Positions 2,931 to 31,063 of a DNA stretch of 31,063 nucleotides are shown piece after piece. A program made the position numbers and the translations under genes. The stretch comes from a virus, in the IMG/VR virus record IMGVR_UViG_3300017613_004197, positions 1-31,063 of that record. One strand, written 5' to 3'. Each line of letters begins with the position of its first letter. The stretch's first letter is position 1. The notes beneath the pieces were generated by a model. That model had not been told where the DNA came from. It made no database searches and saw nothing but the letters and a program-made list of their open reading frames with translations.

Positions 2931-3523
2931 TGGCATTAGAAAGCGTTCAATTTTTTGGAGCGGCAGACAGGGAAGGGAAACGCTCTGACGGTAGAATCGC
3001 ATCGGAATATCCTGGGTGGTATTTTGATGTGCAGTTAGGGGATCTCAAAGAGGAAATAGAGTATAAGCAAGACCAAATCAAGCGGGAGCTTGTTCCCCCG
3101 TCCGAGCTGCCTTATATCAAGGAAGAACTCAAAAAACAGGAAGAAAGCCTTGAGCGTATTCGATCAAAGCCTAAACTGAAAGGCAAAGACGAAGAAGAGG
3201 CTGGATCTTTCTATAAGAAACTTTCCACGGAAATAAGGGAGTCCATGCCGTCCCGGTCTGAAATGAAAAAGGGTTTGGTCAACGTCCACGAAGAGGCACG
3301 GCGGATGACGGAACCTATCATAGACGTGCGGGGAAAAACAAAACTTTTGGCGAATATGGGTATTACGGCTAAAGGTGGAAAGATCAGCCGAACACAGGCG
3401 TCAAAGGCGTTCAAGATTTTAGGAAGGGTGCTTGACGAACCCACCAACACGGAATATCTGAGGCGGGACTATAATCACGGAACCTTTCACCAGGAAAGAA
3501 GTCTTGAAGAAATGGAGAACTAA
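2930..3523 (+). CDS. Hypothetical structural-region protein, coiled-coil
   Basis: 197 residues, not recognised. Residues about 35-75 (DLKEEIEYKQDQIKRELV onward) are strongly helical and charged with a coiled-coil pattern. The C-terminal part (GKTKLLANMGITAKGGKISRTQ) looks like a small globular helical domain. It is joined by TAATG overlaps to the peptide before it and the adaptor gene after it. The position just upstream of the tail adaptor suggests a head-completion or assembly role, but nothing in the sequence proves it. Confidence 0.65.
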   Translation: MALESVQFFGAADREGKRSDGRIASEYPGWYFDVQLGDLKEEIEYKQDQIKRELVPPSELPYIKEELKKQEESLERIRSKPKLKGKDEEEAGSFYKKLSTEIRESMPSRSEMKKGLVNVHEEARRMTEPIIDVRGKTKLLANMGITAKGGKISRTQASKAFKILGRVLDEPTNTEYLRRDYNHGTFHQERSLEEMEN

Positions 3524-7583: not shown

Positions 7584-8357
7584 ATGTATGGGCCAGAGGG
7601 TGATTATCGGGAAATGATGAAGGGTGTGACCGGCAAGGCCATGTTTAACCAAAGGCTTGAGGCTCAGTCAGAGTTCAAAAAGCCTTATTTGTCTGACGAA
7701 TATCCTGAAATGGAACAGTTTTTCATGCCCCCCTTTCCGAACTTTGCATGGCCGGATTGGATTTGGCCTGACTTTTCGGGGCCAATCCCTGAGTCTACTG
7801 ACGAAGAATGGTTTGATGCTCACATGCCTGAAGGTTTGCAGGGATGTTCTATCTTTTGTGTGGGCAATGGGGGGAACCGGGAGTGTGGCGGTGTAGTAAA
7901 GTGCAAATTCTCACGGTATTATTCTGAAAGGATGGCAAATTGGAGCGTCCTGAAAACCAAGGACGGAATAATCCCGGTTGTTGATCTTGTTCAAAGTGAT
8001 GATGGGTATTGGAATCTTATCGTAATTCCGAGGGATAGTTGGAATGATTGCGTTCCAAATGGGAAACAGAGTTTTAAGTTAAAGGTAAAGTTAGACCAGG
8101 GGAACGGAATAACCTGCACGGACGAAGTGACGGTGTATTGTTATCCGTGTCCCGTTGACCCTGTTTTGACATTCGATGATGATAATACACCTGATACCAT
8201 TGTTAAGAATAGCCATATTGATGTGTATGTAGCGGGCGGGAAAGCACCGTTTACCTATGTGGTAAGCGGAACGGGTTATACTTGGAATGGTAATGGAGCA
8301 GCTTCTTACGAATCCAGCAATAGAAACGAGCAGCTTGATTGTGCAGATGGAGATTGA
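7584..8357 (+). CDS. Cys-rich virion protein, part before in-frame TGA
   Basis: ATG 7584 is chosen. The frame is open further upstream (ATG at 7524, GTG at 7491), but those starts lie inside the previous gene. The protein has many cysteines (CSIFCVGN, RECGGVVKC, VYCYPCP) and then an Ig/PKD-like beta domain (DPVLTFDDDNTPDTIV onward, IDVYVAGGKAPFTYVVSG). Translation meets TGA at 8355-8357 right after CADGD, in the middle of this domain, and the same frame then runs on for 124 more codons. It lies between the tail hub and a zinc-ribbon gene and is probably a tail or surface protein. Either a mutation or read-through splits it. Confidence 0.55.
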   Translation: MYGPEGDYREMMKGVTGKAMFNQRLEAQSEFKKPYLSDEYPEMEQFFMPPFPNFAWPDWIWPDFSGPIPESTDEEWFDAHMPEGLQGCSIFCVGNGGNRECGGVVKCKFSRYYSERMANWSVLKTKDGIIPVVDLVQSDDGYWNLIVIPRDSWNDCVPNGKQSFKLKVKLDQGNGITCTDEVTVYCYPCPVDPVLTFDDDNTPDTIVKNSHIDVYVAGGKAPFTYVVSGTGYTWNGNGAASYESSNRNEQLDCADGD

Positions 8358-20904: not shown

Positions 20905-21269
20905 TGTCGAAATACATCACAAAACTAAAGGCCAAAATCCTTGATAACGGCAAGTGGCAACTTACCGAACCCTTGATCTATGATAGTGATTTGGTGGGCC
21001 GTATCTTTGTCCCAACCAATTTTATAACCGACTTTGCCAGTGTCCCCAGGATACCCATTATTTATGCGATGGTGGGAAATTGTTCGCACAGGGCGGCGGT
21101 TTTACATGATTATCTTTACCGAAAGAAGGCAAGTGTAAAAGTCTCACAAACCCAAGCCGACGCTGTGTTTCGTGAAGCTATGGGAGTCAAGGGTGTATCC
21201 TGGTGGCGTAGGTGGCTGATGTGGGCGGGGGTCAGGTTGGGGGGCTGGACGGCTTATAAAAAGAATTAG
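20904..21269 (+). CDS. DUF1353 family protein
   Basis: 121 residues. The motif set fits DUF1353: a beta start (WQLTEPLIYDSDLVGRIFVP), NFITDFASVPRIP, then AAVLHDYLY, QADAVFREAM and a Trp-rich end WWRRWLMWAGVRLGGW. The family occurs in many phages near lysis or tail genes, with no agreed function. TAATG overlap with the preceding lipoprotein. It is the last gene of the rightward late block and its 3' end overlaps the converging leftward gene by four bases. Confidence 0.8.
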   Translation: MSKYITKLKAKILDNGKWQLTEPLIYDSDLVGRIFVPTNFITDFASVPRIPIIYAMVGNCSHRAAVLHDYLYRKKASVKVSQTQADAVFREAMGVKGVSWWRRWLMWAGVRLGGWTAYKKN

Positions 21270-21412
21270 CCGACTTTCATCGCACACGAAAAGCAAGATT
21301 GCAAAAGGCAAAGAAAGATTAGTATCGCTATTAATTGAGAAGCATCTTTAATGCTTTTCAATGCCCCTAATATCTTCTCCTGTAGCTCAATTTCGTTAAA
21401 GTGTGTTGCCAT
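21266..21412 (-). CDS. 48-residue membrane protein
   Basis: Leftward gene too short for routine callers: MATHFNEIELQEKILGALKS, then a hydrophobic span QLIAILIFLCLLQSCFSCAM with a Cys-rich end. An AGGAG site lies 5 bases upstream of the ATG. It is the last gene of the leftward operon, overlaps the gene before it by 17 bases, and meets the DUF1353 gene tail to tail. Function unknown. Confidence 0.6.
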   Translation of the reverse strand: MATHFNEIELQEKILGALKSIKDASQLIAILIFLCLLQSCFSCAMKVG

Positions 21413-21584
21413 TTCTTCTCCTATTTAGAAGTTGGCGATCACAAAAGATCATCTCCGCATACTTATTCGCAACATATTCATTTAAAAGATCACCATTTTT
21501 GCCCGTATAGTCCCACACCATCCTTTGACCCAAATGGATAAAGAAATACGCTAACCTATTCCAATATCTGCTAATTTTATACAT
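21396..21584 (-). CDS. Hypothetical 62-residue protein
   Basis: Starts at ATG 21584 with an AAAGGAG site 5 bases away (a GTG codon just before is less well spaced). Sequence MYKISRYWNRLAYFFIHLGQ is aromatic and basic with a weakly hydrophobic helix, followed by a helical MVWDYTGKNGDLLNEYVANK and a basic tail. No family recognised; it may be membrane-associated. Confidence 0.55.
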   Translation of the reverse strand: MYKISRYWNRLAYFFIHLGQRMVWDYTGKNGDLLNEYVANKYAEMIFCDRQLLNRRRNGNTL

Positions 21585-21602
21585 CACATCTCCTTTCCAC
21601 GC

Positions 21603-21875
21603 TCATGTAGGGCGGTTAAATGTATGCCCACACTGCTCGCAGTGCATAACCGGTTCGGGTTCACCGCATTTTGGGCATTTCGCATCCGCTTCAACGGCTT
21701 GTTCGGGAGCGTCCTGATGGGGTGCGTCGGGGAGTAACCACATGCTTCCTGAACATCGAGGGCATGTAATCATCAAAGCTTTCATTTTAGGAACTATAAT
21801 GTTTCCATAGGTGTCTAAAATTGGCAAATCAACTACTGTTAATTTTGTTTCACAGATTTTACAGAAATAAATCAT
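21603..21875 (-). CDS. Zinc-ribbon protein
   Basis: 90 residues with three metal knuckles: FCKICETKL near the start, ITCPRCSGSMW in the middle and CPKCGEPEPVMHCEQCGHTF near the end, so one or two zinc ribbons are likely. The middle CPRC also has the look of a small DNA/RNA-binding ribbon. Located in the early operon between a 37-residue protein and small proteins, it may be a nucleic-acid-binding accessory, but that is inference. The ribosome site is weak (GAGG). Confidence 0.6.
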   Translation of the reverse strand: MIYFCKICETKLTVVDLPILDTYGNIIVPKMKALMITCPRCSGSMWLLPDAPHQDAPEQAVEADAKCPKCGEPEPVMHCEQCGHTFNRPT

Positions 21876-21887
21876 ATAAGCACCTCA

Positions 21888-22001
21888 TCAGTACAATAGA
21901 TGGAAACTCCTTAACACATCTACCTCTTTAGTATTCAATGCGTGTTCAATTAGAAATTGCACGTACTGTAACCATTCGACTATTTCACCTTGTTTTTTCA
22001 A
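21888..22001 (-). CDS. 37-residue hypothetical, TTG start
   Basis: The frame MKKQGEIVEWLQYVQFLIEH begins at TTG with a strong GGGAGGT site 6 bases upstream and ends in TGA. Helical, with no motif. It lies between the methyltransferase and the zinc-ribbon gene, which leaves room for it. The alternative is that this 155-base gap has no gene, but the site strength argues for one. Confidence 0.45.
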   Translation of the reverse strand: MKKQGEIVEWLQYVQFLIEHALNTKEVDVLRSFHLLY

Positions 22002-22030
22002 GTGTTACCTCCCTTGGGACTACCATTATT

Positions 22031-23212
22031 TCAACCACTTACCTCTGGATTTACCGCTGTCCGACCGCTGTCGGGGAACTGGAATACCCCCTGTGCCAAT
22101 CCATTTGTTGACATCTCACAATATTCCGGGTTCAGTTCTATCAATACCGCCTTCCGGTTCAACCTTTTCGCTACCCTGCCCGCTGTGCCACTCCCCCCGA
22201 ATGGATCTAAAATCGTGTCACCTATCCTTGAACCTGCCAGGATGCACGGCTCTATCAGCTTTTCGGGAAATACGGCAAAGTGGGCTTGAGGGTAGGGATG
22301 TGTCGGGATTGTCCAGACTGAGCGTTTGTTGCGGCCCTTGGAAGACCCCCATTCTCTTTGATTTGCTTCATTGTCAACCTGTCTATCGTTTCTTTCTGAG
22401 ACATTAAGCCGCCATCCAGGTGAATGTGGTTCCGTTTTTAATTCTTCCCTCACCGCATCGGCATCGTAATAATACTTAGCGGATTTTGTTAGCAGGAAAA
22501 TATACTCATGGGCCTTTGTCGGCCTGTCTGTCACGCTCTCCGGCATCGGGTTCGGTTTGTTCCAAATAATATCAGACCGTAACCACCACCCCTCCGCTTG
22601 CAGGGCCAGGGCTACCCTTGCAGGTATCATACAGAGGTCTTTGGGTTTGAGGCCATGTTGTACTGCGGACAATTCCATTCCCACTACTTTATTTAATGTT
22701 TCCCTGTCTTGTCCCGGCCACCCCATCGTGCTTTTACCTTCGCCATTATGGTTTGAACGTTTACCACCCCCTGCATAACTATCCCCCAAATTAAGCCAGC
22801 ACACGCCATCCTTTTTCAGCACCCTTCGCACTTCTCGGAAGATGTCTGCCATGTGCTTAATATATAACTCCGGTGTCGGTTCAAGACCCAGACTCCCCCG
22901 CCAGGCCCCGCAGAGCTGGCAGAATTGACCGGATGAACCGCCTTTGTGAGCATCCCTTGACGGTCTTTGCCATTCTTTTGGAACGCCGTCATTCCCACCG
23001 CCTTCATGTGATCTAATTATTTCATCCCCCCACACATGCACACATCCCTCTTGAGCATCCCAAATCTGAGGCTCAAGACCGTAATCTCTCAATCCCCAAT
23101 AAGGTGGGCTGGTCACGCAACATTGGATTGATTCAGGTTCCATGCCTCTGAGTACGTCAAGGACGTGGCCCTGTAAAATCATTACTCCGTCATGTGTGTA
23201 GTACGGCCTCAC
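22031..23212 (-). CDS. Beta-class DNA amino-methyltransferase (N4-cytosine/N6-adenine)
   Basis: 393 residues. Motif IV TSPPYWGLRDYG (residues 34-45) stands near the N-terminus and motif I DPFGGSGT (336-343) near the C-terminus, the order of beta-class enzymes; SPPY is common in N4-cytosine and also N6-adenine methylases. Between them are a FCQLCGAWRGSLGLEPT segment (about 95-115, possible zinc site) and WLNLGDSYAGGG. It transfers methyl from SAM to an exocyclic amino group and probably protects phage DNA from host restriction; no partner nuclease is seen. The GTG start overlaps the stop of the gene before it (GTGA), which supports this start. Confidence 0.85.
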   Translation of the reverse strand: MRPYYTHDGVMILQGHVLDVLRGMEPESIQCCVTSPPYWGLRDYGLEPQIWDAQEGCVHVWGDEIIRSHEGGGNDGVPKEWQRPSRDAHKGGSSGQFCQLCGAWRGSLGLEPTPELYIKHMADIFREVRRVLKKDGVCWLNLGDSYAGGGKRSNHNGEGKSTMGWPGQDRETLNKVVGMELSAVQHGLKPKDLCMIPARVALALQAEGWWLRSDIIWNKPNPMPESVTDRPTKAHEYIFLLTKSAKYYYDADAVREELKTEPHSPGWRLNVSERNDRQVDNEANQREWGSSKGRNKRSVWTIPTHPYPQAHFAVFPEKLIEPCILAGSRIGDTILDPFGGSGTAGRVAKRLNRKAVLIELNPEYCEMSTNGLAQGVFQFPDSGRTAVNPEVSG

Positions 23213-23379
23213 TCCATCCCCCGTATCTTCTCCAGGTTCAGCCCACGGTACCGCTCACTCGTTGTTCTCGGATTCGTATGCCCCAAAATCTGACTCAACA
23301 AATCAAGCTGTCCCTCGAACCTATGGGCGTATGATATGGCTATCAATCGTTTAAGGTCTCTGTCTGATACTATTATCAT
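23209..23379 (-). CDS. 56-residue protein like the C-terminus of tyrosine recombinases
   Basis: A complete small gene with AAGGAGG before the ATG and a stop that overlaps the methyltransferase start. It reads MIIVSDRDLKRLIAISYAHR, then LDLLSQILGHTNPRTTSERY. The LGHTNPRTTSERY stretch matches the region of phage integrases that ends with the catalytic His/Trp box (LGH) and the nucleophile Tyr (here Y44). The rest of the integrase (Arg-Lys-His-Arg box) is absent, so it cannot recombine alone. It may be a domesticated remnant or regulator. Confidence 0.65.
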   Translation of the reverse strand: MIIVSDRDLKRLIAISYAHRFEGQLDLLSQILGHTNPRTTSERYRGLNLEKIRGME

Positions 23380-23391
23380 AAGGCCTCCTTT

Positions 23392-23550
23392 TTAAACTCG
23401 GTGCTCAGGATGTCCTTTAAAGACAACAATAGGATTCGGGTGTGCTGCATCGTTCTCTCGTTCGCAAATGTCTCCATCATCCCACACAATGCAGACTATT
23501 CCTTTATGGCCGTCCTCGTCTATGACCTGATCGCCGATTTCGTATGTCAT
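23392..23550 (-). CDS. 52-residue beta-rich protein
   Basis: Starts ATG 23550 and reads MTYEIGDQVIDEDGHKGIVC, then IVWDDGDICERE. The pattern (G-D-x-V-x-D-x-x-G-x-x-G-x-V) is that of a small SH3/KOW-like beta barrel, as in proteins that bind nucleic acid or ribosomes. Ends in TAA just before the integrase-like gene. Function not recognised. Confidence 0.55.
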   Translation of the reverse strand: MTYEIGDQVIDEDGHKGIVCIVWDDGDICERENDAAHPNPIVVFKGHPEHRV

Positions 23551-23853
23551 CTATTCCCCCTTTTCCATCTTTCCTATGTACTCCGTCTGAAGTCTAACCA
23601 TTTTAATAATCACACTTATTGGGTCCACTACGCTCCTGCCGTTTTCTTCCCTATCGTGGCATATAAGGCACAGGGGAATTGTCTGTGTGTCGGCTGGTTT
23701 CATCCCCCACCCTCCATCATGCAGGCGTACATGGTGTGCCTCGGAAGGTGCTGATTTACCGCAACCGAAGCAGGGGTGTTCACGTACAAATTCCTTGTAT
23801 TTCTCACTCCTGAATGTGTGCGGTTTTGGTATCTGTGTCACGTCCCTTGACAT
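23551..23853 (-). CDS. HNH-like (DUF968-type) nuclease
   Basis: 100 residues. After a short start comes RSEKYKEFVREHPCFGCG, then SEAHHVRLHDGGWGMKPADT and PLCLICHDREE. This layout (CxxC, AHH, C..CH) matches DUF968-type HNH proteins, related to recombination nucleases such as P1 Ref; the two His of AHH and the second CxxCH would bind metal. It lies in the early operon with the ERF/exonuclease pair, suggesting a recombination or repair role. The start overlaps the gene before it by 50 bases. Confidence 0.75.
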   Translation of the reverse strand: MSRDVTQIPKPHTFRSEKYKEFVREHPCFGCGKSAPSEAHHVRLHDGGWGMKPADTQTIPLCLICHDREENGRSVVDPISVIIKMVRLQTEYIGKMEKGE

Positions 23854-23971
23854 AGAAATCTTTCCCTTCGACGAGCTCCCGTCGTTTCAACCGATTAACC
23901 TCTTTGGTAATGGCCGTCTTCTTGTCACGCTCGATAACTGACCGTCCGTAAATGATTTCGTAGATTGGCAT
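23804..23971 (-). CDS. 55-residue basic hypothetical protein
   Basis: Starts at the ATG overlapping the preceding stop (TAATG) and reads MPIYEIIYGRSVIERDKKTA, then a basic helix NRLKRRELVEGKDFYVKG. The charge suggests nucleic-acid contact. No family. Its 3' end overlaps the HNH gene in another frame. Confidence 0.45.
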   Translation of the reverse strand: MPIYEIIYGRSVIERDKKTAITKEVNRLKRRELVEGKDFYVKGRDTDTKTAHIQE

Positions 23972-24318
23972 TATTCTTGCCCCGTTAATTCTGCCCGAAG
24001 CCAAGTCAGTAAACTGCGGTAGCTATCAATCTGCACCCTAAGATCCTTAATCTTCTCACGGCAAGCATGAAAGACCCCTTCGGCTATATCTGCCTTGTAG
24101 CACAGGTCAGCTACGGCCTTGTCCCCCTTTGCCAACGAAGGGATAATCGTCACAGACTCCCCATTAATCTTGAGTTGAGCGACCTTTTGGGCGTATGCCA
24201 CCTTGTAGTCCCGGTCTGCGACCGCTTTCTTTTCAGAGAGTTCGGCTAATTCATCATTTTTCATGGAGAGCATACGGTTTTTTTCTTTCATGCCGTTCAT
24301 GATTTCTTGTGGGTTCAC
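23971..24318 (-). CDS. Coiled-coil protein of recombination module
   Basis: 115 residues, GTG start with AAGGAGCTATC in front. A charged helical protein with a coiled-coil pattern (MKEKNRMLSMKNDELAELSE onward) and a second helical half ending RSLLTWLRAEL. I recall similar small helical proteins beside phage ERF or recombinase genes. It could assist the annealing protein. Followed by a TAATG overlap to the next gene. Confidence 0.6.
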   Translation of the reverse strand: MNPQEIMNGMKEKNRMLSMKNDELAELSEKKAVADRDYKVAYAQKVAQLKINGESVTIIPSLAKGDKAVADLCYKADIAEGVFHACREKIKDLRVQIDSYRSLLTWLRAELTGQE

Positions 24319-24327
24319 GATAGCTCC

Positions 24328-24936
24328 TTAAAACGGGGTTTCATCCAGAAAATCCTGCGGTTCATTCTGCCATGCCTCATATTGAGCGTCAAAACCGTCA
24401 ATAAATGTCTGCATTTCCTTGTCGGTTTTGGCCCCCACAAAGTCTGAAAATTTCTTCATGGCCTCCTTAGTCATACCGTTAGCCTTCATCTTATTGTAAA
24501 GAATTTGCTTTGGGGTTAATTCTTCTTTGTCGGATTCCGGTGGTTTGGATTTCTCCGGTTCAGGCTTACCCGAATCAGCATCTTTTGTATCGTCAATACA
24601 GAACAGCCCATTTAGCGCATACTTACGGGCATAGCTTGATGCTGCCCCTGTGATTTGGCTTACATCCATCCCTTTCTTAGATTCTGCTTCTCTCGCAAAG
24701 GCTGAAACAGCAATTGTATTTTCTTTATTCCAAAGGCTGACCGTGGCTTTAATATAATATCTATCCCCGATCAGAACAATTTCATCCTTCATGGTTAAGA
24801 TTGTTTCGGTTTCAGATAAAAGTGGCTTGACCGCCTCAAGAATATCTTCGCAATTGCGGTATTTATATTTGCCAAAGTCATTAAACTGCCCCTTTGGTGC
24901 TTTCAATTTACTCTGTATAATGCCAAGTGCATCCAT
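24328..24936 (-). CDS. ERF family single-strand annealing protein
   Basis: 202 residues. Residues 1-40 (IQSKLKAPKGQFNDFGKYKYR, EDILEAVKPLL) and the core ITGAASSYARKYALNGLFCIDD (96-116) are characteristic of the ERF family, which anneals complementary single strands in phage recombination. A Pro/Glu/Lys-rich linker follows (about 122-145), then a helical domain and an acidic end with a C-terminal FLDETPF, which looks like the SSB tail motif. It lies beside the exonuclease gene (8-base gap), forming a two-gene recombination system. Confidence 0.9.
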   Translation of the reverse strand: MDALGIIQSKLKAPKGQFNDFGKYKYRNCEDILEAVKPLLSETETILTMKDEIVLIGDRYYIKATVSLWNKENTIAVSAFAREAESKKGMDVSQITGAASSYARKYALNGLFCIDDTKDADSGKPEPEKSKPPESDKEELTPKQILYNKMKANGMTKEAMKKFSDFVGAKTDKEMQTFIDGFDAQYEAWQNEPQDFLDETPF

Positions 24937-24944
24937 GATTCCCC

Positions 24945-25682
24945 CTATGTTGGATTATATCGTTTTTGTATCTTCCATAGTTCAAAGCAAGCCTGAAACA
25001 TCTGCCACCCTCGTTCAATCTCTACCCTGTCATCCCAATAGACAAATTCAATGTCCCCATTCCAACCAACAAATATGTTGACAAGGACAGGAAAGGTCGT
25101 TGCCCCAATCCCTTTGGCATAGGCTGTTAGTTGCATTATGTGTTCATCCCATGCCAGCTTCTTTGTTGTATCAAGGATCTCTTTTGTTTTGATATCGGCA
25201 ATAAGGTTATCAGCCCCTAAGTCAATCGTACCACCATAACCCAAATCTGTATTTGCAAATGTCTTTTCGGCAAAAGAAAGAGACTTTAATTCCTTCATGA
25301 TACCAGCCATTACAGAAAAAGCTAAATCCTTATATTCAGCCAAAACAGCTTCTCCCCGGAATGCCTTTTCAATCGCTTTGTGAATTGCAACTCCTTTATC
25401 ACGGGCAATCCGGCTGATTTCTTGCGAGTCTGTCTTGATACGTTTCACATAAGAATCATCAGATTCATCTTTATCCCGTGGCAGGGTCAAGGCTGACTCT
25501 AATACTCTATCCTGAATCCAGTTATTAAGCCCTGGTTTGTCCAGTATCTTGATGATTTCCGTAACCGAGGGATATAAGCCCAATTTCTTGACATCTCGCA
25601 GTGTGGTGTCCCTCAGACCCCTTGAAGCATCTTTGTAGGGGACTTGGTAGACCGGATTTCCGTTTTTATCGTAACTATGCAT
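24945..25682 (-). CDS. PD-(D/E)XK exonuclease (phage recombination nuclease)
   Basis: 245 residues. The nuclease core shows E139 (SFAEKTFANTD), D154 (GGTIDLGAD) and D163-I-K165 (LIADIKTKE), the PD-(D/E)XK signature, with a helical part HKAIEKAF before it. It resembles RecB/Cas4-like nucleases in phage recombination systems, where 5'-end resection makes the single strand for the annealing protein next to it. The site GGAGG precedes the ATG, which overlaps the preceding stop (TAATG). Confidence 0.85.
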   Translation of the reverse strand: MHSYDKNGNPVYQVPYKDASRGLRDTTLRDVKKLGLYPSVTEIIKILDKPGLNNWIQDRVLESALTLPRDKDESDDSYVKRIKTDSQEISRIARDKGVAIHKAIEKAFRGEAVLAEYKDLAFSVMAGIMKELKSLSFAEKTFANTDLGYGGTIDLGADNLIADIKTKEILDTTKKLAWDEHIMQLTAYAKGIGATTFPVLVNIFVGWNGDIEFVYWDDRVEIERGWQMFQACFELWKIQKRYNPT

Positions 25683-25837
25683 TATTCCAATTCCTCCGCA
25701 AGCGTTCTAAGTTTTACGGCTAATTTTTTACCCGCACCCTTGTCCAGAAAATCGCTTTTAATGGTAGCGTTCCCCTCTGTTATTACCAACCTTTTCACCT
25801 TACCCGCATAGTCAACAACCCTAACTTCAATTTCCAT
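25682..25837 (-). CDS. 51-residue hypothetical protein
   Basis: Sequence MEIEVRVVDYAGKVKRLVIT, then a helical second half. A beta-hairpin start and helical end; no motif. Very strong ribosome site (GGAGGTGGTG) before the ATG; stop overlaps the exonuclease ATG, so it is co-translated with the recombination genes. Confidence 0.6.
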   Translation of the reverse strand: MEIEVRVVDYAGKVKRLVITEGNATIKSDFLDKGAGKKLAVKLRTLAEELE

Positions 25838-25974
25838 CACCACCTCCGTCCATATTTATCCGTGCGTTTCCGTTCCCACACCCGCCTGACTATCTCCACA
25901 ACCCCCCATGCAAGGAAGATTAGAAAGGCGATTGTCAGGATTCGGGTCAGAATTTCAAAGATTGTTTCAATCAT
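25837..25974 (-). CDS. 45-residue membrane protein
   Basis: One hydrophobic span (MIETIFEILTRILTIAFLIF, continuing LAWGVV) followed by a basic tail VRRVWERKRTDKYGRRW, so the C-terminus would face the cytoplasm. The TGA overlaps the next ATG. Small early membrane proteins of this kind occur in many phages; role unknown. Confidence 0.6.
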   Translation of the reverse strand: MIETIFEILTRILTIAFLIFLAWGVVEIVRRVWERKRTDKYGRRW

Positions 25975-26141
25975 TCTCTGCACCTTTCTCTAATGTGTTT
26001 CGGGCAACGGTAACAAGCATCCCCCGGCCCGACAGGGCATGGTCTCCACTTTTCGGCTTCACGGTCCCTCTCTGTGAGGTGTTCGTCAAGCTCACGGTCC
26101 AGTCGGTACTCATTTGTGCGGAGTTTGTCGGCAAAGGTCAT
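25971..26141 (-). CDS. 56-residue Cys-containing protein
   Basis: Begins MTFADKLRTNEYRLDRELDE, charged helical, and ends with four Cys (WRPCPVGPGDACYRCPKHI, RERCRE) that could bind one metal ion. Its stop overlaps the next gene's ATG (ATGA). Ribosome site weak. Family not recognised. Confidence 0.5.
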   Translation of the reverse strand: MTFADKLRTNEYRLDRELDEHLTERDREAEKWRPCPVGPGDACYRCPKHIRERCRE

Positions 26142-26148
26142 GGGTTGT

Positions 26149-26263
26149 CTATCTCATTTCACTTTTCATATTAAAAGGTCGCTGGCAGATAGCACACTTC
26201 TTTTTAACAGAAGGAGTCTACCGGTGCTGCGTTCTGCCTCATAAGCTCTACTACTGCCAGCAT
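26149..26263 (-). pseudogene. Possible frameshifted zinc-knuckle gene
   Basis: ATG 26263 reads MLAVVELMRQNAAPVDS and stops at TAA 26204. In another frame the sequence continues SVKKKCAICQRPFNMKSEMR to a TAG at 26149, with a CxxC knuckle that has no start of its own. Removing one T near 26210-26213 would join the parts. Either the gene is broken, a base is wrong, or these are unrelated. No good ribosome site. Confidence 0.25.
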
Positions 26264-26273
26264 AAAGGTTAAT

Positions 26274-26288
26274 TCCAAGGTTGACCAG
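26274..26288. repeat. 15-bp direct repeat, copy 1
   Basis: TCCAAGGTTGACCAG occurs here and exactly at 26673-26687, about 400 bases apart, flanking the 90-residue gene at 26296-26568. Each copy is preceded by a further AAGGTT (26265 and 26663 areas), making an AAGGTT-spacer-CCAAGGTT arrangement. Confidence 0.75.
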
Positions 26289-26295
26289 GGACACG

Positions 26296-26568
26296 TTAGA
26301 TAAACTCGTTCAGGGCGTCACGAGCTTCCCGGAGAGCACTTAATGACCCGTCAAGCCAGTAGTTTGTAATTTTAAGCCAGTTTGTAATTTTCACTGATGC
26401 GCAATCCGAGGCTTCTGATGTTTCTTCATCCGGTTGTCCCTTTAGGGGAGGTGGTGATATCTCCCAAGCCTTCCTCCGGAGTTCAACAGACAATGCCTGT
26501 AAATCTTCCAGTTTTACCATAATTCTTCCCATGCCGGTTTGTTGTTTAGCGTCTTTCATGTCTGGCAT
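26296..26568 (-). CDS. First gene of leftward operon, hypothetical
   Basis: 90 residues from ATG 26568, which has a strong GGGAGGAATGAA site; upstream TTG codons in the same frame are not needed. Helical (DLQALSVELRRKAWEIS), a Pro-rich loop (PPPLKGQPDEETSE) and a helical end (SALREARDALNEFI). No family recognised. Being first from the strong promoter, it may be an early take-over or regulatory protein. It is flanked by the 15-bp direct repeats. Confidence 0.6.
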   Translation of the reverse strand: MPDMKDAKQQTGMGRIMVKLEDLQALSVELRRKAWEISPPPLKGQPDEETSEASDCASVKITNWLKITNYWLDGSLSALREARDALNEFI

Positions 26569-26672
26569 TTCATTCCTCCCGTATTGCGAGTATTCCCTTT
26601 CAAAACTCCAAGACCCCAAAGGTTCCCATGCCCAGGCTAATAGTAGCCAATACCCGCAAAATAAGGTTTCTC

Positions 26673-26687
26673 TCCAAGGTTGACCAG
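26673..26687. repeat. 15-bp direct repeat, copy 2
   Basis: Exact copy of TCCAAGGTTGACCAG at 26274. It falls in the untranslated leader of the leftward operon, between the promoter and the first gene. The core CAAGGTTRA also occurs on the other strand at 26856-26864, where it overlaps the rightward promoter's -35 box. Confidence 0.75.
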
Positions 26688-26725
26688 TTTACAAGTTATC
26701 CTTGATCCCGCCATCACCGACAGCC

Positions 26726-26750
26726 GGGTCTCGATTTAGCTCGCAGACCC
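26726..26750 (-). promoter_or_regulatory. Hairpin in leader of the leftward operon
   Basis: On the leftward transcript GGGTCT, a bulged G, CGA, loop GCTAAA, then TCGAGACCC make a 9-bp stem with one bulge. Flanking CCCG/CGGG arms (around 26706-26728) could stack beside it. No T run follows, so it is a structured leader rather than a terminator. The 225-base leader between promoter and first gene otherwise holds only a 17-codon frame and one repeat copy. Confidence 0.45.
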
Positions 26751-26799
26751 CTGGCTTTTGCGTGTGATACAGGATTGTTGATTTTTCATGGTGAGGGTA

Positions 26800-26828
26800 A
26801 TTATAAAAAATGGATTCCGTCTTGTCAA
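26800..26828 (-). promoter_or_regulatory. Perfect-consensus sigma70 promoter, leftward
   Basis: Reading leftward: TTGACA (26828-26823), 17-base spacer, TATAAT (26805-26800). Both hexamers match consensus exactly at the best spacing. Start of transcription would be near 26793. It faces the leftward early operon and is the strongest promoter-like signal in the window. Confidence 0.85.
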
Positions 26829-26847
26829 GAACTATTTTCGTATCGAA
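26820..26847. promoter_or_regulatory. Operator-like palindromes between divergent promoters
   Basis: TCTTG-T-CAAGA (26820-26830) is a perfect 5-1-5 palindrome that covers the leftward -35 box, and TTCG-TAT-CGAA (26837-26847) is a 4-3-4 palindrome between the two promoters. They are candidate binding sites for the regulator encoded at 26897. Their short length means chance cannot be ruled out. Confidence 0.45.
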
Positions 26848-26861
26848 TCATTATTTTAACC

Positions 26862-26890
26862 TTGACATATGGTACTTTTTTCTATATGCT
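26862..26890 (+). promoter_or_regulatory. Rightward promoter for the HTH gene (leaderless)
   Basis: TTGACA (26862-26867), 17-base spacer, TATGCT (26885-26890). Transcription would begin about 7 bases on, at or next to the ATG at 26897, and there is no ribosome site between, so the message is probably leaderless, as with lambda cI from PRM. Confidence 0.65.
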
Positions 26891-26896
26891 TTAGCC

Positions 26897-27076
26897 ATGA
26901 AATACTCAAAATCAGTTAAGGGTTTGATATCACAGCTAATTTCCAAATTCGGTTCTGCTCGGGCTGTTGCGGAAGAACTTCGCATATCTAAACGGTATGT
27001 CGAGATGCTTCGGGATGGCAAGAAAAAAGCATCCTGGGCATTAGCAGAATTGATCCGGTTGAAAGTTAATGGATAG
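26897..27076 (+). CDS. Small helix-turn-helix regulator (Cro/CI-like)
   Basis: 59 residues from ATG 26897. A HTH is visible at about residues 18-44 (FGSARAVAEELRISKRYVEM, then LRDGKKKAS); the second helix would read DNA bases. It is basic and Cro-sized, sits between the divergent promoters and the rightward early genes, and probably represses one or both promoters. An upstream in-frame start at 26810 would cross the promoter and is rejected. The stop overlaps no gene with a convincing start. Confidence 0.7.
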   Translation: MKYSKSVKGLISQLISKFGSARAVAEELRISKRYVEMLRDGKKKASWALAELIRLKVNG

Positions 27077-27144
27077 GTGTGCTTCTCGCCCTCTGTGCCA
27101 ACGACAATCCTACCCCAAAGAGATGTCAAGAAATGGAGGGGTAA

Positions 27145-28026
27145 ATGACTCACATTGACCTCTTTACAGGCATAGGCGGGTTTTCTCTCGCCTGTCAATG
27201 GAACGGCATTCAAACTGAGGTAATGGTTGAAAAAGATGAAAAATGCAGAGACTTCCTTAGAAGAACCTATCCAGACATCCCTATTATTCCCGACATCCGA
27301 GAATTTGACGGAACGAAATGGCAAGGGCGATTTATCCTTACTGGGGGAGTCCCATGTCAACCTGCGAGTCGTGCCGGGAAGCAGAGAGGCAAGGAAGACG
27401 ACCGTTGGCTCTGGGGAGAAGCTCTGCGTGTTCTTGCCGAAGCAAAGCCCTGTTGGGCATTGTTTGAAAACCCTCCTGGGATCTATGACGTGGGGTTCGA
27501 TGGAATATTATCTGACCTGGAAAGCACAGGCTACGAACTCGGGATATGTGAGATTCCGGCTTGTGCCGTCAACTCCCCGCAGATCAGGCAGAGAGTGTGG
27601 ATCGTGGCAAACGCCATCGGTAGTAGACCAGACGGGCAGGCAGTATCAGTATGTGGGGAAAGACCGGAAGAAATTTCTATGTCTTCCTGGGCAAGTCAAA
27701 GCCACATGGCCGACACCGAGGGTATCTTGCCAGAACGGACCATCCCAAAAAGAAATTGCACAGAGGAACCCGAAACGCCGGCTGGAAACAGAATTGGTAA
27801 TTTCTGGCAAAACTCCCTCTGGCTCCCTTGCGCTGACGGAAAACTTCGTAGAACGCCTGATTTTATTGAGCAGTTGGTTGATGGGGTATCCGTTAACATA
27901 CTTGAAGAATTGGCAGAAGAAGGCTGGCCGCACAGGTCGGTCTTAGCGGCTTTGGGGAATAGTATAGTGCCACAGGTAGCGTTTCAAATAATTCAAGCGA
28001 TAGTGAGGGCAAACGATGAAAGCTAA
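27145..28026 (+). CDS. C5-cytosine DNA methyltransferase (Dcm-like)
   Basis: 293 residues with the ordered motifs: I IDLFTGIGGF (4-13), IV GVPCQPASRAG with catalytic Cys71, VI FENP (107-110), VIII QIRQRVWIVA (146-155) and X LGNSIVPQVA (270-279). The TRD between VIII and X is short, so the enzyme is smaller than most and its target cannot be read by eye. GGAGG with good spacing precedes the ATG. It probably hides phage DNA from host restriction, as does the second methylase at 22031. Another frame is open through most of the gene (see the 27236 entry). Its stop overlaps the HNH gene start. Confidence 0.9.
   Translation: MTHIDLFTGIGGFSLACQWNGIQTEVMVEKDEKCRDFLRRTYPDIPIIPDIREFDGTKWQGRFILTGGVPCQPASRAGKQRGKEDDRWLWGEALRVLAEAKPCWALFENPPGIYDVGFDGILSDLESTGYELGICEIPACAVNSPQIRQRVWIVANAIGSRPDGQAVSVCGERPEEISMSSWASQSHMADTEGILPERTIPKRNCTEEPETPAGNRIGNFWQNSLWLPCADGKLRRTPDFIEQLVDGVSVNILEELAEEGWPHRSVLAALGNSIVPQVAFQIIQAIVRANDES
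27236..27946 (+). CDS. Long ORF overprinted in the methyltransferase gene
   Basis: A 236-codon frame (+1 relative to the methylase) without a stop. It reads in part SHVNLRVVPGSREARKTTVG, YYLTWKAQATNSGYVRFRLV, WQTPSVV, TWPTPRVS and WLMGYPLTYL. I recall phage database proteins with this set of motifs (a PGS.EARK..TV opening, L.WK..T..G..LF.LVPS, WPTP repeats, WLMGFP end); they look like the same overprinted frame of other methylases. No good ribosome site precedes ATG 27236; translation is unproven. Conserved overlap could mean a real dual gene or only a shadow of conserved methylase codons. Confidence 0.4.
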   Translation: MKNAETSLEEPIQTSLLFPTSENLTERNGKGDLSLLGESHVNLRVVPGSREARKTTVGSGEKLCVFLPKQSPVGHCLKTLLGSMTWGSMEYYLTWKAQATNSGYVRFRLVPSTPRRSGRECGSWQTPSVVDQTGRQYQYVGKDRKKFLCLPGQVKATWPTPRVSCQNGPSQKEIAQRNPKRRLETELVISGKTPSGSLALTENFVERLILLSSWLMGYPLTYLKNWQKKAGRTGRS

Positions 28027-28390
28027 CGATCATGGCTATGTAAGAACTATGATAAATTATGAAAGAAAATATGAACATCAAAGGGTATGGGAAAAACACA
28101 ACGGCCCCATCCTTGAGGGTTTTGAAATTCATCATATCAATGGAGATTCAGCAGACAACCGAGTCGAAAACCTTGAGCTTTTAACACATAAAGAACACAT
28201 GAGAAGGCATATCACATGTTATCGCACAATAAATGGTGTTCGGCAAAAACAATGTACTGTCTGTAAAGAATGGAAACCGTTGAATGAGTTTTCACCGATG
28301 GGGCGTTGTCTTTCTGGGCCGTGCAAGCCATGTAAAGTAGAGTATAACCGAAATTTAAGATTGTCCCGCAAGTCGCATACGAAATCATAA
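28016..28390 (+). CDS. HNH endonuclease, free-standing
   Basis: 124 residues. The core EHQRVWEKHNGPILEGFEIH, HINGDSADNRVENLELLTHK and EHMRRH is the HNH_3-type layout (H..H, N..N, H), which makes a nick or double-strand cut with a single metal ion; many free-standing phage copies are homing enzymes. A C-terminal zinc-like part (QCTVCKEWKPLNEF, GPCKPCKVEY) adds CxxC pairs. The ATG overlaps the methylase end by 11 bases with GAGGG in front. Confidence 0.85.
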   Translation: MKANDHGYVRTMINYERKYEHQRVWEKHNGPILEGFEIHHINGDSADNRVENLELLTHKEHMRRHITCYRTINGVRQKQCTVCKEWKPLNEFSPMGRCLSGPCKPCKVEYNRNLRLSRKSHTKS

Positions 28391-28439
28391 GGGCGATAAA
28401 GGAAACGGATTTGTAGGCTATTTTTACGGAGGTGTCAAG

Positions 28440-28700
28440 ATGAACAAATGGCTGATGTGGGCGGTCGTGATCCTGGTAATTATCCTGCTTTATTTCTTAC
28501 TCGGGGGCCGGGGCGAGTCAAGGGTTATCTCCGTGCAACCGGATATTGACCCCTATGAGCGCATAATCTACGCCCAGGCGCACAATTACCACGGAATCCT
28601 GTTTAGCACATGCCCTGGTGACGGTGAGCCGTATTTTTACCGTAATGGACAAAAGTGTAAACTATTGTCAACAATTAGGGGTTGGAGGGTGGTGCTGTGA
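28440..28700 (+). CDS. Membrane-anchored hypothetical protein
   Basis: 86 residues. One N-terminal hydrophobic span (MNKWLMWAVVILVIILLYFL) then a folded outside part with RVISVQPDIDPYERIIYA and YFYRNGQKCKLLS, two Cys. Good site GGAGG before the ATG. It could be an exclusion or envelope-acting early protein; no family recognised. Confidence 0.6.
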   Translation: MNKWLMWAVVILVIILLYFLLGGRGESRVISVQPDIDPYERIIYAQAHNYHGILFSTCPGDGEPYFYRNGQKCKLLSTIRGWRVVL

Positions 28701-28744
28701 ATTTGAACAAGTTGAAGAACAAGAGGGCGAGAGACAGATTTTAA
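28697..28744 (+). CDS. 15-residue basic ORF in coupling chain
   Basis: GTG start overlaps the preceding stop (GTGA) and the TAA overlaps the next ATG (TAATG). It reads MNLNKLKNKRARDRF. The double overlap suggests a translational coupler or remnant; otherwise it is too short to support. Confidence 0.25.
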   Translation: MNLNKLKNKRARDRF

Positions 28745-28848
28745 TGAATTTATCAATAACTGGTATGGGAGTAAATGAAAATGACATGCCATTGCCGGTG
28801 ATATGCGTGAATGTGAAACAGACAGGGCGCATGATATTTAAGGCTTGA
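28744..28848 (+). CDS. 34-residue hypothetical protein
   Basis: Reads MNLSITGMGVNENDMPLPVI, then VNVKQTGRMIFKA, a beta-strand pattern. TAATG overlap with the short frame before. The TGA stop lies within the -35 box of the next promoter. No family. Confidence 0.35.
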   Translation: MNLSITGMGVNENDMPLPVICVNVKQTGRMIFKA

Positions 28849-28872
28849 CATTCACGGGGGAATATGGATAAT
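28845..28872 (+). promoter_or_regulatory. Sigma70 promoter of a short structured transcript
   Basis: TTGACA (28845-28850), 16-base spacer, GATAAT (28867-28872): five of six at -10, all six at -35. Transcription would begin near 28879, 40 bases before the branched hairpin. Confidence 0.6.
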
Positions 28873-28917
28873 GAGGGGTAAGGTAAACGATAGATGGAAA
28901 TTAAACTTGCAAACTTA

Positions 28918-28999
28918 AAGAAGCTCCACAAGGTTCTGTTCCGGGATGGAACGGGAGGCTTATCACCTCTACCTTGCCTTGTGGGGCTTCTTTTTTTTT
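28918..28999 (+). ncRNA. Branched hairpin RNA ending in intrinsic terminator
   Basis: The outer stem pairs 28918-28933 with 28977-28992 over 16 bp (one G-U pair), followed by nine T (28991-28999). Within the 43-base loop, GTTCC/GGAAC (938-942 and 948-952) and GAGG/CCTC (955-958 and 966-969) form two more hairpins, so the RNA is a three-way junction. With the promoter at 28845 it makes a transcript of about 120 nt that ends 14 bases before the replication gene at 29013. It may be a stand-alone small RNA or an attenuator for that operon, like the immunity RNA of phage P4 or the C4 RNA of P1. A 40-codon frame (28894-29016) crosses it but is probably not translated. Confidence 0.65.
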
Positions 29000-29012
29000 G
29001 GAGCTTACCCCG

Positions 29013-29393
29013 ATGAGTACCAATAAAAGACCATGGTATGCCTTTTGGCCTAAAGATTTCAACCAAGATGAAAAAGTTCAATGCCTACCCGCACTTGCAG
29101 AGCTTATTTATAGACGAGCTTTAGATGTATTATGGCAAAATAATGGCACTCGCATACCAAACGCAATGGCACTTTTATATAATTCGCTTGGAAAGGGTAT
29201 TTCCGAACGGGAATTTTCTGAATTATGGGAAAAAATCCAATATCCCGGATTTGAAATATTAGAAACAACACAGGATAAAAAATGGATATATTCTAAGAGG
29301 TTACAGGAACAAAAGAAAAAGATCGATGATTCTATCGAACAAAAGAGCAGGGCGGGTAAAAAAGGCGCAAAGGCAAGATGGGTAAAGCCTTAA
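29013..29393 (+). CDS. DUF1376-like replication protein, shortened
   Basis: 126 residues from ATG 29013 with GGAG 8 bases ahead. The opening RPWYAFWPKDFNQDEKVQCL, then LAELIYRRALDVLWQNNG, is the DUF1376 pattern (phage replication initiation/YdaU-type). A helical RLQEQKKKIDDSIEQK and SRAGKKGAKARW follow, where relatives usually continue with a linker and second domain. Here a tandem TAATAA ends the frame, so it may be truncated. It is preceded by the terminator RNA and followed by the helicase. Confidence 0.65.
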   Translation: MSTNKRPWYAFWPKDFNQDEKVQCLPALAELIYRRALDVLWQNNGTRIPNAMALLYNSLGKGISEREFSELWEKIQYPGFEILETTQDKKWIYSKRLQEQKKKIDDSIEQKSRAGKKGAKARWVKP

Positions 29394-29413
29394 TAACACT
29401 CGCATACGATTGC

Positions 29414-29441
29414 CAATGCGGTGGCAATGCGGTGGCAATGG
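29414..29441. repeat. 11-bp tandem repeat after DUF1376-like gene
   Basis: CAATGCGGTGG occurs twice in tandem (29414-29424, 29425-29435) with a partial third copy CAATGG. It lies in a 149-base gap in which I see no gene; the same frame as the upstream gene would read through it after the two stops. A slippage site or the eroded end of the longer ancestor. Confidence 0.5.
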
Positions 29442-29542
29442 CAAAACGATGGCTATACAGATACAGATACATAAACTACTAACTACCCTATCCAAGAAAA
29501 AGGTTATTACTATATAAGAACCTATTAACTACAAGGGGGCCG

Positions 29543-31063
29543 GTGGAAAACCCAAAATTACGAGATTACCAGGAAAGAGCAATTTCAACCCTTCGATCAT
29601 TCATTGGTAAGGGGCTACGAAAAACTATCATGGCCCTGCCAACGGGGGCCGGAAAATCAATAATTTTTGGTCAGATAATTTCAAATGCTCTCGATAAAGG
29701 TAAAACTATTCTTTGGCTGGTACACCGGAGAAACTTGGTATGGCAGATGAAAGATGTTCTTGAACAATTCGGGGTAGAGGCCGGGGTAATTATGGCCGGG
29801 ACTGAATCAGATACAACCTTACCCTGTCAGATCGGAACAATCCAAACATATATAAGGCGGTTGAAATTAAGCGCCACTTTTGACAACCATTTTTTCATTG
29901 ATGCTGATTTGGTTTTAATTGACGAGGGGCATAGATCATTAAGCAAAACCTATATGGATACGATAAGCCTATATTCTGAAAAGATCATAATAGCCTGTAC
30001 AGCTACGCCCATGAGGGCCGATGGCCGGGGTATGGGCGAAGTTTACGATTCGATTGCAGATATAGCCGGGGTTCAGGAATTAACAGATCAAGAATATTTA
30101 TCTCCTGCCAGGTACTTTGCGCCGTCAACTCCTGACCTTGAGGGGGTTAAAATTGTGATGGGTGATTACGTTGTTAAACACCTGGACAAGAAAATGAATA
30201 AGACGAAACTAAACGGCGATATTGTAGAAAACTGGCTGAAAAATGGGGAGGACAGAAAAACCTTGGTTTTTTGTGTGAATGTGAAACACTCCATAGCCAT
30301 TTGTGAAGAGTTTCAAAAGCAGGGCGTGAACGCGGAACACTTAGATGCTAAAAGCAGTGATGAGGTACGGAATGATGTTTTTGTACGGATGGAGAGGGGG
30401 GACACTCAAGTTATTTGCAATGTTGGTCTGTATCAAGAGGGGTTAGATGTTCCGAGCGTGAGTTGTGTTATTATGGCAAGGCCGACCAAGAGTATGGGCC
30501 TTTACCGACAATGTTGTGGCCGGGGGTTGCGGGTGTTCCCAGGGAAAAGCGACTGCATTATTTTCGATCACGGGGGTGTAATTGAAGAGCATGGATTTTT
30601 AGAAGATGAACTTGAATGGAGCTTAGATGGTAAAGAAAAGGCGTGGAAGAAACCTACCATAAAAGAGAATGAACCAAAATTGAGCAAGTGTAGGGTGTGT
30701 CACCAGATATTCAAGGGAACTAAGATTTGTCCAGTGTGCGGCACAGAACTTCGATCCTTCGGCAAAAAGATTGAGACGGTTGACGCTGAACTTGTGGAAT
30801 TAAAGACGCTGAAGGAAAACAATAAGGCTTTGTGTTGGGAAGATAAGCGGATTTTCTATGGGACGTTGCTTTATTATGCTGAGAAGAATGGGTATAAGCG
30901 GGGTTGGGCTTCACACTCGTATAAAAGCTACACGGGTGTCTGGCCGAACGATAAAAGGGTAAAGCATGTGTCTCCCATACATCCAGAGGGTAAGTTTAAG
31001 AATTTACTACAACATATCTTAATAAAAAAAGCTGCTCAATACAAAAAATTAAAGGCGGCGTGA
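29543..31063 (+). CDS. SF2 DEAD/DEAH-type helicase with zinc ribbon
   Basis: 506 residues. SF2 motifs: DYQ near the start (8-10), I PTGAGKS (33-39), II DEGH (127-130), III TATP (153-156), V GLDV region (299-303) and VI QCCGRGLR (323-330). A zinc ribbon C383-C386-C396-C399 follows, and then a C-terminal domain with Trp/Lys-rich stretches (WASHSYKSYTGVWPNDKR). The enzyme unwinds duplex or branched DNA with ATP, likely for phage replication or recombination. GTG start with AAGGGGG in front; TGA is the final base of the window, so the gene is complete. Confidence 0.9.
   Translation: MENPKLRDYQERAISTLRSFIGKGLRKTIMALPTGAGKSIIFGQIISNALDKGKTILWLVHRRNLVWQMKDVLEQFGVEAGVIMAGTESDTTLPCQIGTIQTYIRRLKLSATFDNHFFIDADLVLIDEGHRSLSKTYMDTISLYSEKIIIACTATPMRADGRGMGEVYDSIADIAGVQELTDQEYLSPARYFAPSTPDLEGVKIVMGDYVVKHLDKKMNKTKLNGDIVENWLKNGEDRKTLVFCVNVKHSIAICEEFQKQGVNAEHLDAKSSDEVRNDVFVRMERGDTQVICNVGLYQEGLDVPSVSCVIMARPTKSMGLYRQCCGRGLRVFPGKSDCIIFDHGGVIEEHGFLEDELEWSLDGKEKAWKKPTIKENEPKLSKCRVCHQIFKGTKICPVCGTELRSFGKKIETVDAELVELKTLKENNKALCWEDKRIFYGTLLYYAEKNGYKRGWASHSYKSYTGVWPNDKRVKHVSPIHPEGKFKNLLQHILIKKAAQYKKLKAA

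Follow-up and report, generated by a model that had tools for sequence, protein, structure and literature searches.

A branched leader RNA ahead of phage replication genes, a putative C4/P4-CI-like antisense attenuator

Phages P1, P4 and Gifsy-1 use branched antisense RNAs to silence genes of their own. C4/CI RNA immunity has been described for Proteobacteria and their phages, in which these RNAs have a recognisable sequence (PMC2864571, PMC5320573). C4 is made up of P1, P2 and P3 and binds target mRNA through its a' and b' loops, the latter near the ribosome-binding site; the RNA is processed by RNase P at the 5' end of P1 and acts in trans on its target (PMC5320573). In P4, CI RNA causes premature termination ahead of the replication genes (PMC4825925). 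In Gifsy-1, conservation of orf45 is seen at the nucleotide level and not in the amino acids; its translation is coupled to that of anrP and is activated in trans by IsrK (PMC4825925). Among titles and abstract openings in the open-licence literature, we found no account of an RNA of this kind ahead of primosomal or DUF1376 genes.

We analysed a viral stretch of 31,063 nt (IMG/VR record IMGVR_UViG_3300017613_004197, hereafter the window), in which a promoter, a branched RNA and a T run directly precede two replication genes. On balance, we read this element as a C4/P4-CI-like antisense attenuator of the replication genes. It comprises the following features:

28845-28850, plus strand: -35 element TTGACA, followed by a 16-nt spacer
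28867-28872, plus strand: -10 element GATAAT
28877-28885, plus strand: putative target GGTAAGGTA in the Shine-Dalgarno region of the leader ORF, with the core AAGGTA at 28880-28885
28894-29016, plus strand: 40-codon leader ORF traversing the RNA (ORF reading)
28917-28934, plus strand: 5' arm of P1 (fold)
28936-28954, plus strand: P2 hairpin, 7 bp with a loop of 5 (fold)
28955-28969, plus strand: P3 hairpin, 4 bp with a loop of 7, CTTATCA (fold)
28970-28975, plus strand: J31 single strand TACCTT, putative antisense segment (unpaired in the fold; complementarity)
28976-28993, plus strand: 3' arm of P1 (fold)
28991-28999, plus strand: T9 run, intrinsic-terminator-like together with P1 (sequence)
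29013-29393, plus strand: primosomal-protein-like gene (phrog_9327 'primosomal protein', E 8.5e-7)
29543-31063, plus strand: DNA helicase gene (phrog_16, E 1.5e-100; ResIII/Helicase_C)

The initial annotation had placed a near-consensus promoter ahead of the RNA, and we found it there: the sigma-70-type promoter TTGACA-16-GATAAT at 28845-28872 (+) matches 11 of the 12 consensus bases. Two sites of this quality occur in 21000-31063 on both strands, where 60 shuffles gave 0.23 on average. From the sequence, transcription is predicted to start near 28879. Elsewhere in the window, 26800-26900 holds divergent promoters (12/12 on the minus strand, 10/12 on the plus strand) that precede a small ORF with its ATG at 26897, Cro-like by eye; a longer ORF at that locus (ATG 26897 region) had no match in a PHROGs search.

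The region 28870-29005 folds at -46.4 kcal/mol (z = -3.46), a value that none of 200 dinucleotide shuffles equalled or bettered. The fold is a three-way junction (28917-28993), as the initial annotation had said, but its closing stem P1 measures 18 bp and not the 16 bp given there. The nine-T run noted beside the stem is likewise present (28991-28999) and is the single T9 of the window. By sequence and fold, a G+C-rich hairpin is thus followed directly by a T run, as in an intrinsic terminator; a simple terminator scan (loops of at most 8) picked up a partial stem only. We also observed that the Shine-Dalgarno stretch of the replication gene, TGGAGCTT at 28999-29006, is complementary to AAGCTCCA at 28921-28928 in the 5' arm of P1; this duplex (8 pairs, -11.2 kcal/mol) is a possible alternative fold.

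We detected eight further copies of the element, of unrelated sequence, in seven other records, mostly ahead of replication genes. Relatives of the locus were collected through searches with the primosomal protein and the helicase protein (L002-L019, viral contigs) and through helicase alignments (L022-L058, viral and genome contigs). A multiloop scan proved too loose, and a scan for dense stems upstream of the helicase was used instead; it gave long-stem branched copies in 7 of 12 records, window included (eight copies: the window, L003, L019, L026, two in L028, L056 and L057). The same scan gave no accepted copy in L022, L023, L024, L025 and L029, and in L022, the closest helicase relative (71%), the primosomal gene has no such RNA ahead of it. 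Another 47 loci, chosen for their DUF1376 or DUF4373-like genes (L061-L107), added only one copy, L073; the copy in L061 was already known, since L061 and L028 are the same contig. None of 12 named-phage regions has such an RNA before a replication gene. Candidates that were not element-like (L025 3472-3542, L066, L085, L086 and L095) were excluded from the counts, as were six matches in named phages that were weak or not located immediately upstream of the replication gene.

Of 8 copies, 6 have TTGACA no more than 110 nt ahead of the stem (P = 4e-8), and the window copy alone among the copies has a convincing -10 element. Both TTGACA and complementarity are missing in L056. In 1.11 Mb (both strands) of these loci, eight distinct places have a perfect stem of 15 bp or longer that encloses 30-60 nt, four of them directly ahead of a replication gene (window, L003, L026 and L057); because these loci are partly those that yielded the copies, this gives a background rate and not an independent test. 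L028 carries two RNAs (L028a and L028b) with different loop/target pairs, about 700 nt apart. The RNA at 2542-2617 stands ahead of a replication gene that by eye is DUF4373-like, and the RNA at 3250-3328 ahead of a gene that by eye is HNH-like. In L050, away from the helicase, the minus strand has a perfect stem of 16 bp (7644-7719) whose two-branch interior resembles that of C4. In L057, positions 572-808 encode a repeated GKSY peptide, and a weak MIR7526 match in that locus was rejected as the GKSY repeat read on the opposite strand.

Scanning IMG/VR for the DNA pattern of the stem and P2 of the window gave 0 matches, and DNA similarity searches of named phages and plasmids gave no match. 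MAFFT failed to align the copies, so there is no covariation count; the element is too diverged for classical covariation and has no near relative.

The leader ORF (28894-29016) and the complementarity between loop and leader are both additions to the initial annotation. The ORF runs across the terminator-like stem and ends at the start of the next gene, the layout of a leader-ORF attenuator; its stop codon TGA and the start codon at 29013 overlap in the sequence ATGA. Five of the seven copies examined have a coupled leader ORF, which shuffles produce at 5-27% each (joint P = 2.6e-4). It is absent in L003 and L073, and in L003 a second mini-ORF, read by eye, overlaps the gene start. L056 was omitted from the tests requiring a leader ORF, and L057, whose contig starts 12 nt ahead of the stem, from all tests requiring a leader. 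As for the genes downstream, the helicase named in the initial annotation stands (phrog_16), and 'DUF1376-like' finds no confirmation as a Pfam match, the gene at 29013-29393 having none. A search for relatives of the primosomal protein in 395 genomes of the phylum of G001, run without a positive control, found none.

GGTAAGGTA (28877-28885), located at the predicted transcript start and within the ribosome-binding region of the leader, is complementary to TACCTTGCC at 28970-28978, that is, to the junction strand and three stem bases. Its core AAGGTA (28880-28885) is complementary to all six unpaired bases of J31 (TACCTT, 28970-28975). By itself, the complementarity in the window is modest (p about 0.03-0.04). 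The P3 loop of L028a, CCGCAC, is complementary over its whole length to GTGCGG, which lies seven bases past the start of the leader; that of L028b, CTATCC, is likewise complementary throughout to GGATAG, eight bases past the start of its leader. L026 has the match ATCTCA-TGAGAT. The two L028 leaders are homologous (p = 0.002) but differ at the target, with the loops changed to match, and leaders alike except at the target are what an exchange of specificity would leave.

We scored contiguous helices, having dropped a long-range duplex score that did not separate true from shuffled pairs even for P4. With contiguous helices against the leader start in six copies, the window, L003 and L019 each came near p = 0.04, and a first version of a swap test on six copies gave 24/720. 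When the 60 nt before the stem were taken as the leader in eight copies, the Fisher p was 0.009 and the swap test gave 308/40,320. A strict test, framed after these 60-nt results, was confined to the bases that the fold leaves unpaired, and set the start of the leader against tiles from the rest of each locus. It gave p = 0.002 for L028a, 0.024 for L028b, 0.027 for the window and 0.053 for L026, and was not significant for L003 (0.32), L019 (0.41) and L073 (0.83); the combined p for the seven copies, with the three unsupportive ones included, is 7e-4. These tests are partly post hoc and involve few copies; the copies were selected by stem and fold, and the earliest scans also printed complementarity, which drew attention to L003 and L019. 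In P4, used as a positive control, the same kind of pairing search recovered matches upstream and downstream of the CI RNA, and the CI loop TCCTGTGAA pairs on both sides. In the Gifsy-1 control, pairings were recovered downstream of C4; the upstream half returned nothing, which we put down to a script boundary and did not count.

In L003 (around 2895-2907, 2985-2992 and 2613-2624), the RNA segment CTCCTTGG can in addition form 8 pairs with the ribosome-binding site of the replication gene and, when extended, 12 pairs with that of an upstream ORF. These extra matches resemble the second target site of C4.

A somewhat unlikely alternative is a leader-ORF attenuator that works in cis only: translation would open the branched terminator, no diffusible antisense RNA would be made, and the loop/leader pairing would be an intramolecular pseudoknot or chance. 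Such a device would explain the ORF that, in 5 of 7 copies, crosses the stem and is coupled to the gene behind it, the T run at the stem and the placing of target and loop in one transcript, and it fits the copies in which convincing complementarity is missing. It accounts less well for the different yet matching loops and targets of the paralogous L028 copies and for the P1-P2-P3-J31 shape, which recurs in a known trans-acting RNA. These last two observations suggest that the pairing matters; between cis and trans the sequence does not distinguish.

Terminators are common between phage operons. We regard it as improbable that the element is an ordinary one serving upstream transcription, with the promoter and the short ORF incidental: a terminator lying about 45 nt past a strong promoter, with the gene that it would silence starting about 20 nt further on, would hardly be sensible, even though the long stem with T9 suits one and the reverse strand likewise folds into a long hairpin. 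The two-branched interior, the coupled ORF and the loop complementarity moreover recur in unrelated sequences.

A leader that senses a ligand or temperature (riboswitch, thermometer or amino-acid attenuator) would also be structured and stand ahead of an operon, and we consider it very improbable here. No Rfam riboswitch reaches its gathering score, the sole match at E <= 10 in 28700-29100 being to a riboswitch family at 13 bits, far below the cut-off, and the leader peptide sequences and P1, P2 and P3 are not conserved between the copies, unlike an aptamer. Nor do we give much credence to features assembled by chance, as the p of about 0.03-0.04 for the window complementarity alone and the tests picked after the copies had been inspected might suggest, in view of the fold z of -3.46 and the promoter and recurrence results.

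As an antisense attenuator, the element would work as follows. The promoter at 28845 would start a short transcript whose 5' end carries the ribosome-binding site of the leader ORF. Ribosomes translating the leader would traverse the long stem, hold it open and block termination at T9, and leader translation would bring ribosomes to the primosomal gene, whose start overlaps the end of the leader. If TACCTT, whether in cis or supplied by another copy, pairs in the cell with AAGGTA in the Shine-Dalgarno region of the leader, the latter would remain untranslated, the stem would form and transcription would terminate. The terminated RNA of about 120 nt would then be the inhibitor and could act in trans to repress further copies, a self-reinforcing shut-off that may control copy number or timing or confer immunity to a related phage.

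A search of the window against Rfam, including RF01695, had been proposed as a check in the initial annotation, and it came back empty: nothing in the window attains the gathering score of any Rfam family, and C4 (RF01695) has no match in 28700-29100 even at E <= 10. The gathering threshold of C4 (45 bits) is reached neither by the window nor by the other copies; P4 scores 74.9 bits and Gifsy-1 69.0 bits. IsrK (RF01394) and c4-a1b1 (RF03163) are absent from the window and present in P4 and Gifsy-1; in P4 they lie upstream of C4, with c4-a1b1 just under the cut-off. A search of 155 genomes with RF01695 gave no match, but carries no weight, the positive controls being equally silent.

We also built a covariance model from the window copy alone, which with default filters found the window itself only. 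Unfiltered on 58.5 kb, it placed the L028 copies first (21.7 and 17.5 bits), followed by L073, L026 and the P4 CI RNA, which is its best place in P4 (14.1 bits, E = 0.09). Gifsy-1 C4 ranked 12th of the 26 matches listed (E 1.6), and L019 and L056 were missed. Since the anatomy resembles that of C4/CI and the C4 model does not match, we call the element C4/CI-like on anatomy and do not place it in RF01695. The likeness to P4 CI and P1 C4 seen in the initial annotation is borne out in architecture, in leader-RBS complementarity and in the Gifsy-1 type of ORF layout, and fails for RF01695 membership.

More tentatively, the copies may belong to a sequence-unconstrained class of self-made immunity or attenuator RNAs in uncultivated phages, in which the terminated leader would be its own repressor and a six-base loop-leader specificity could be rewritten in step, giving two orthogonal switches in one phage (L028a and L028b). 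If shape and antisense logic are kept without sequence, current covariance models would miss such switches, RNA control of phage replication genes would be more widespread, and the switch would be compact, with a specificity readable from six bases.

Like C4, the window RNA has a P1-P2-P3 three-way junction followed by a 3' single strand. C4 (RF01695), the family of P1/P7 c4, P4 CI RNA and the RNA of the Gifsy-1 orf45 region, has a P1 of 17 bp, a P2 of 5 bp with a 4-nt loop, a P3 of 5 bp with a 12-nt loop and then about 8 unpaired bases; the window RNA has a P1 of 18 bp, a P2 of 7 bp with a loop of 5, a P3 of 4 bp with a loop of 7 and a J31 of 6, in the same P1-P2-P3-J31 architecture, and an interior of 41-44 nt and a J31 of 6-8 nt are common to both. 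Complementarity of a loop or junction to a ribosome-binding region of the same operon is also found, modest in the window and stronger in the set, where the tests are partly post hoc. Unlike in C4, the P1 of the window RNA has its own T run, and the RNA lies within the very leader ORF whose start region it is predicted to target.

The P4 immunity system consists of CI RNA with seqA/seqC. CI is processed from an untranslated transcript, whereas a terminator end is predicted for the window RNA; CI pairs with sites 144 nt upstream and 35 nt downstream of it, and the window target starts 40 nt upstream of P1. The predicted likeness is that of a leader-derived RNA gating transcription into replication genes. 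In Gifsy-1, the downstream gene is an antirepressor, where the window has a replication gene. C4 there lies inside the 45-codon orf45, whose stop overlaps anrP as ATGA, and the window leader ORF is arranged likewise. Gifsy-1 isrK-orf45-anrP and the window thus share a short leader ORF that encodes a non-conserved peptide and has a structured RNA within it.
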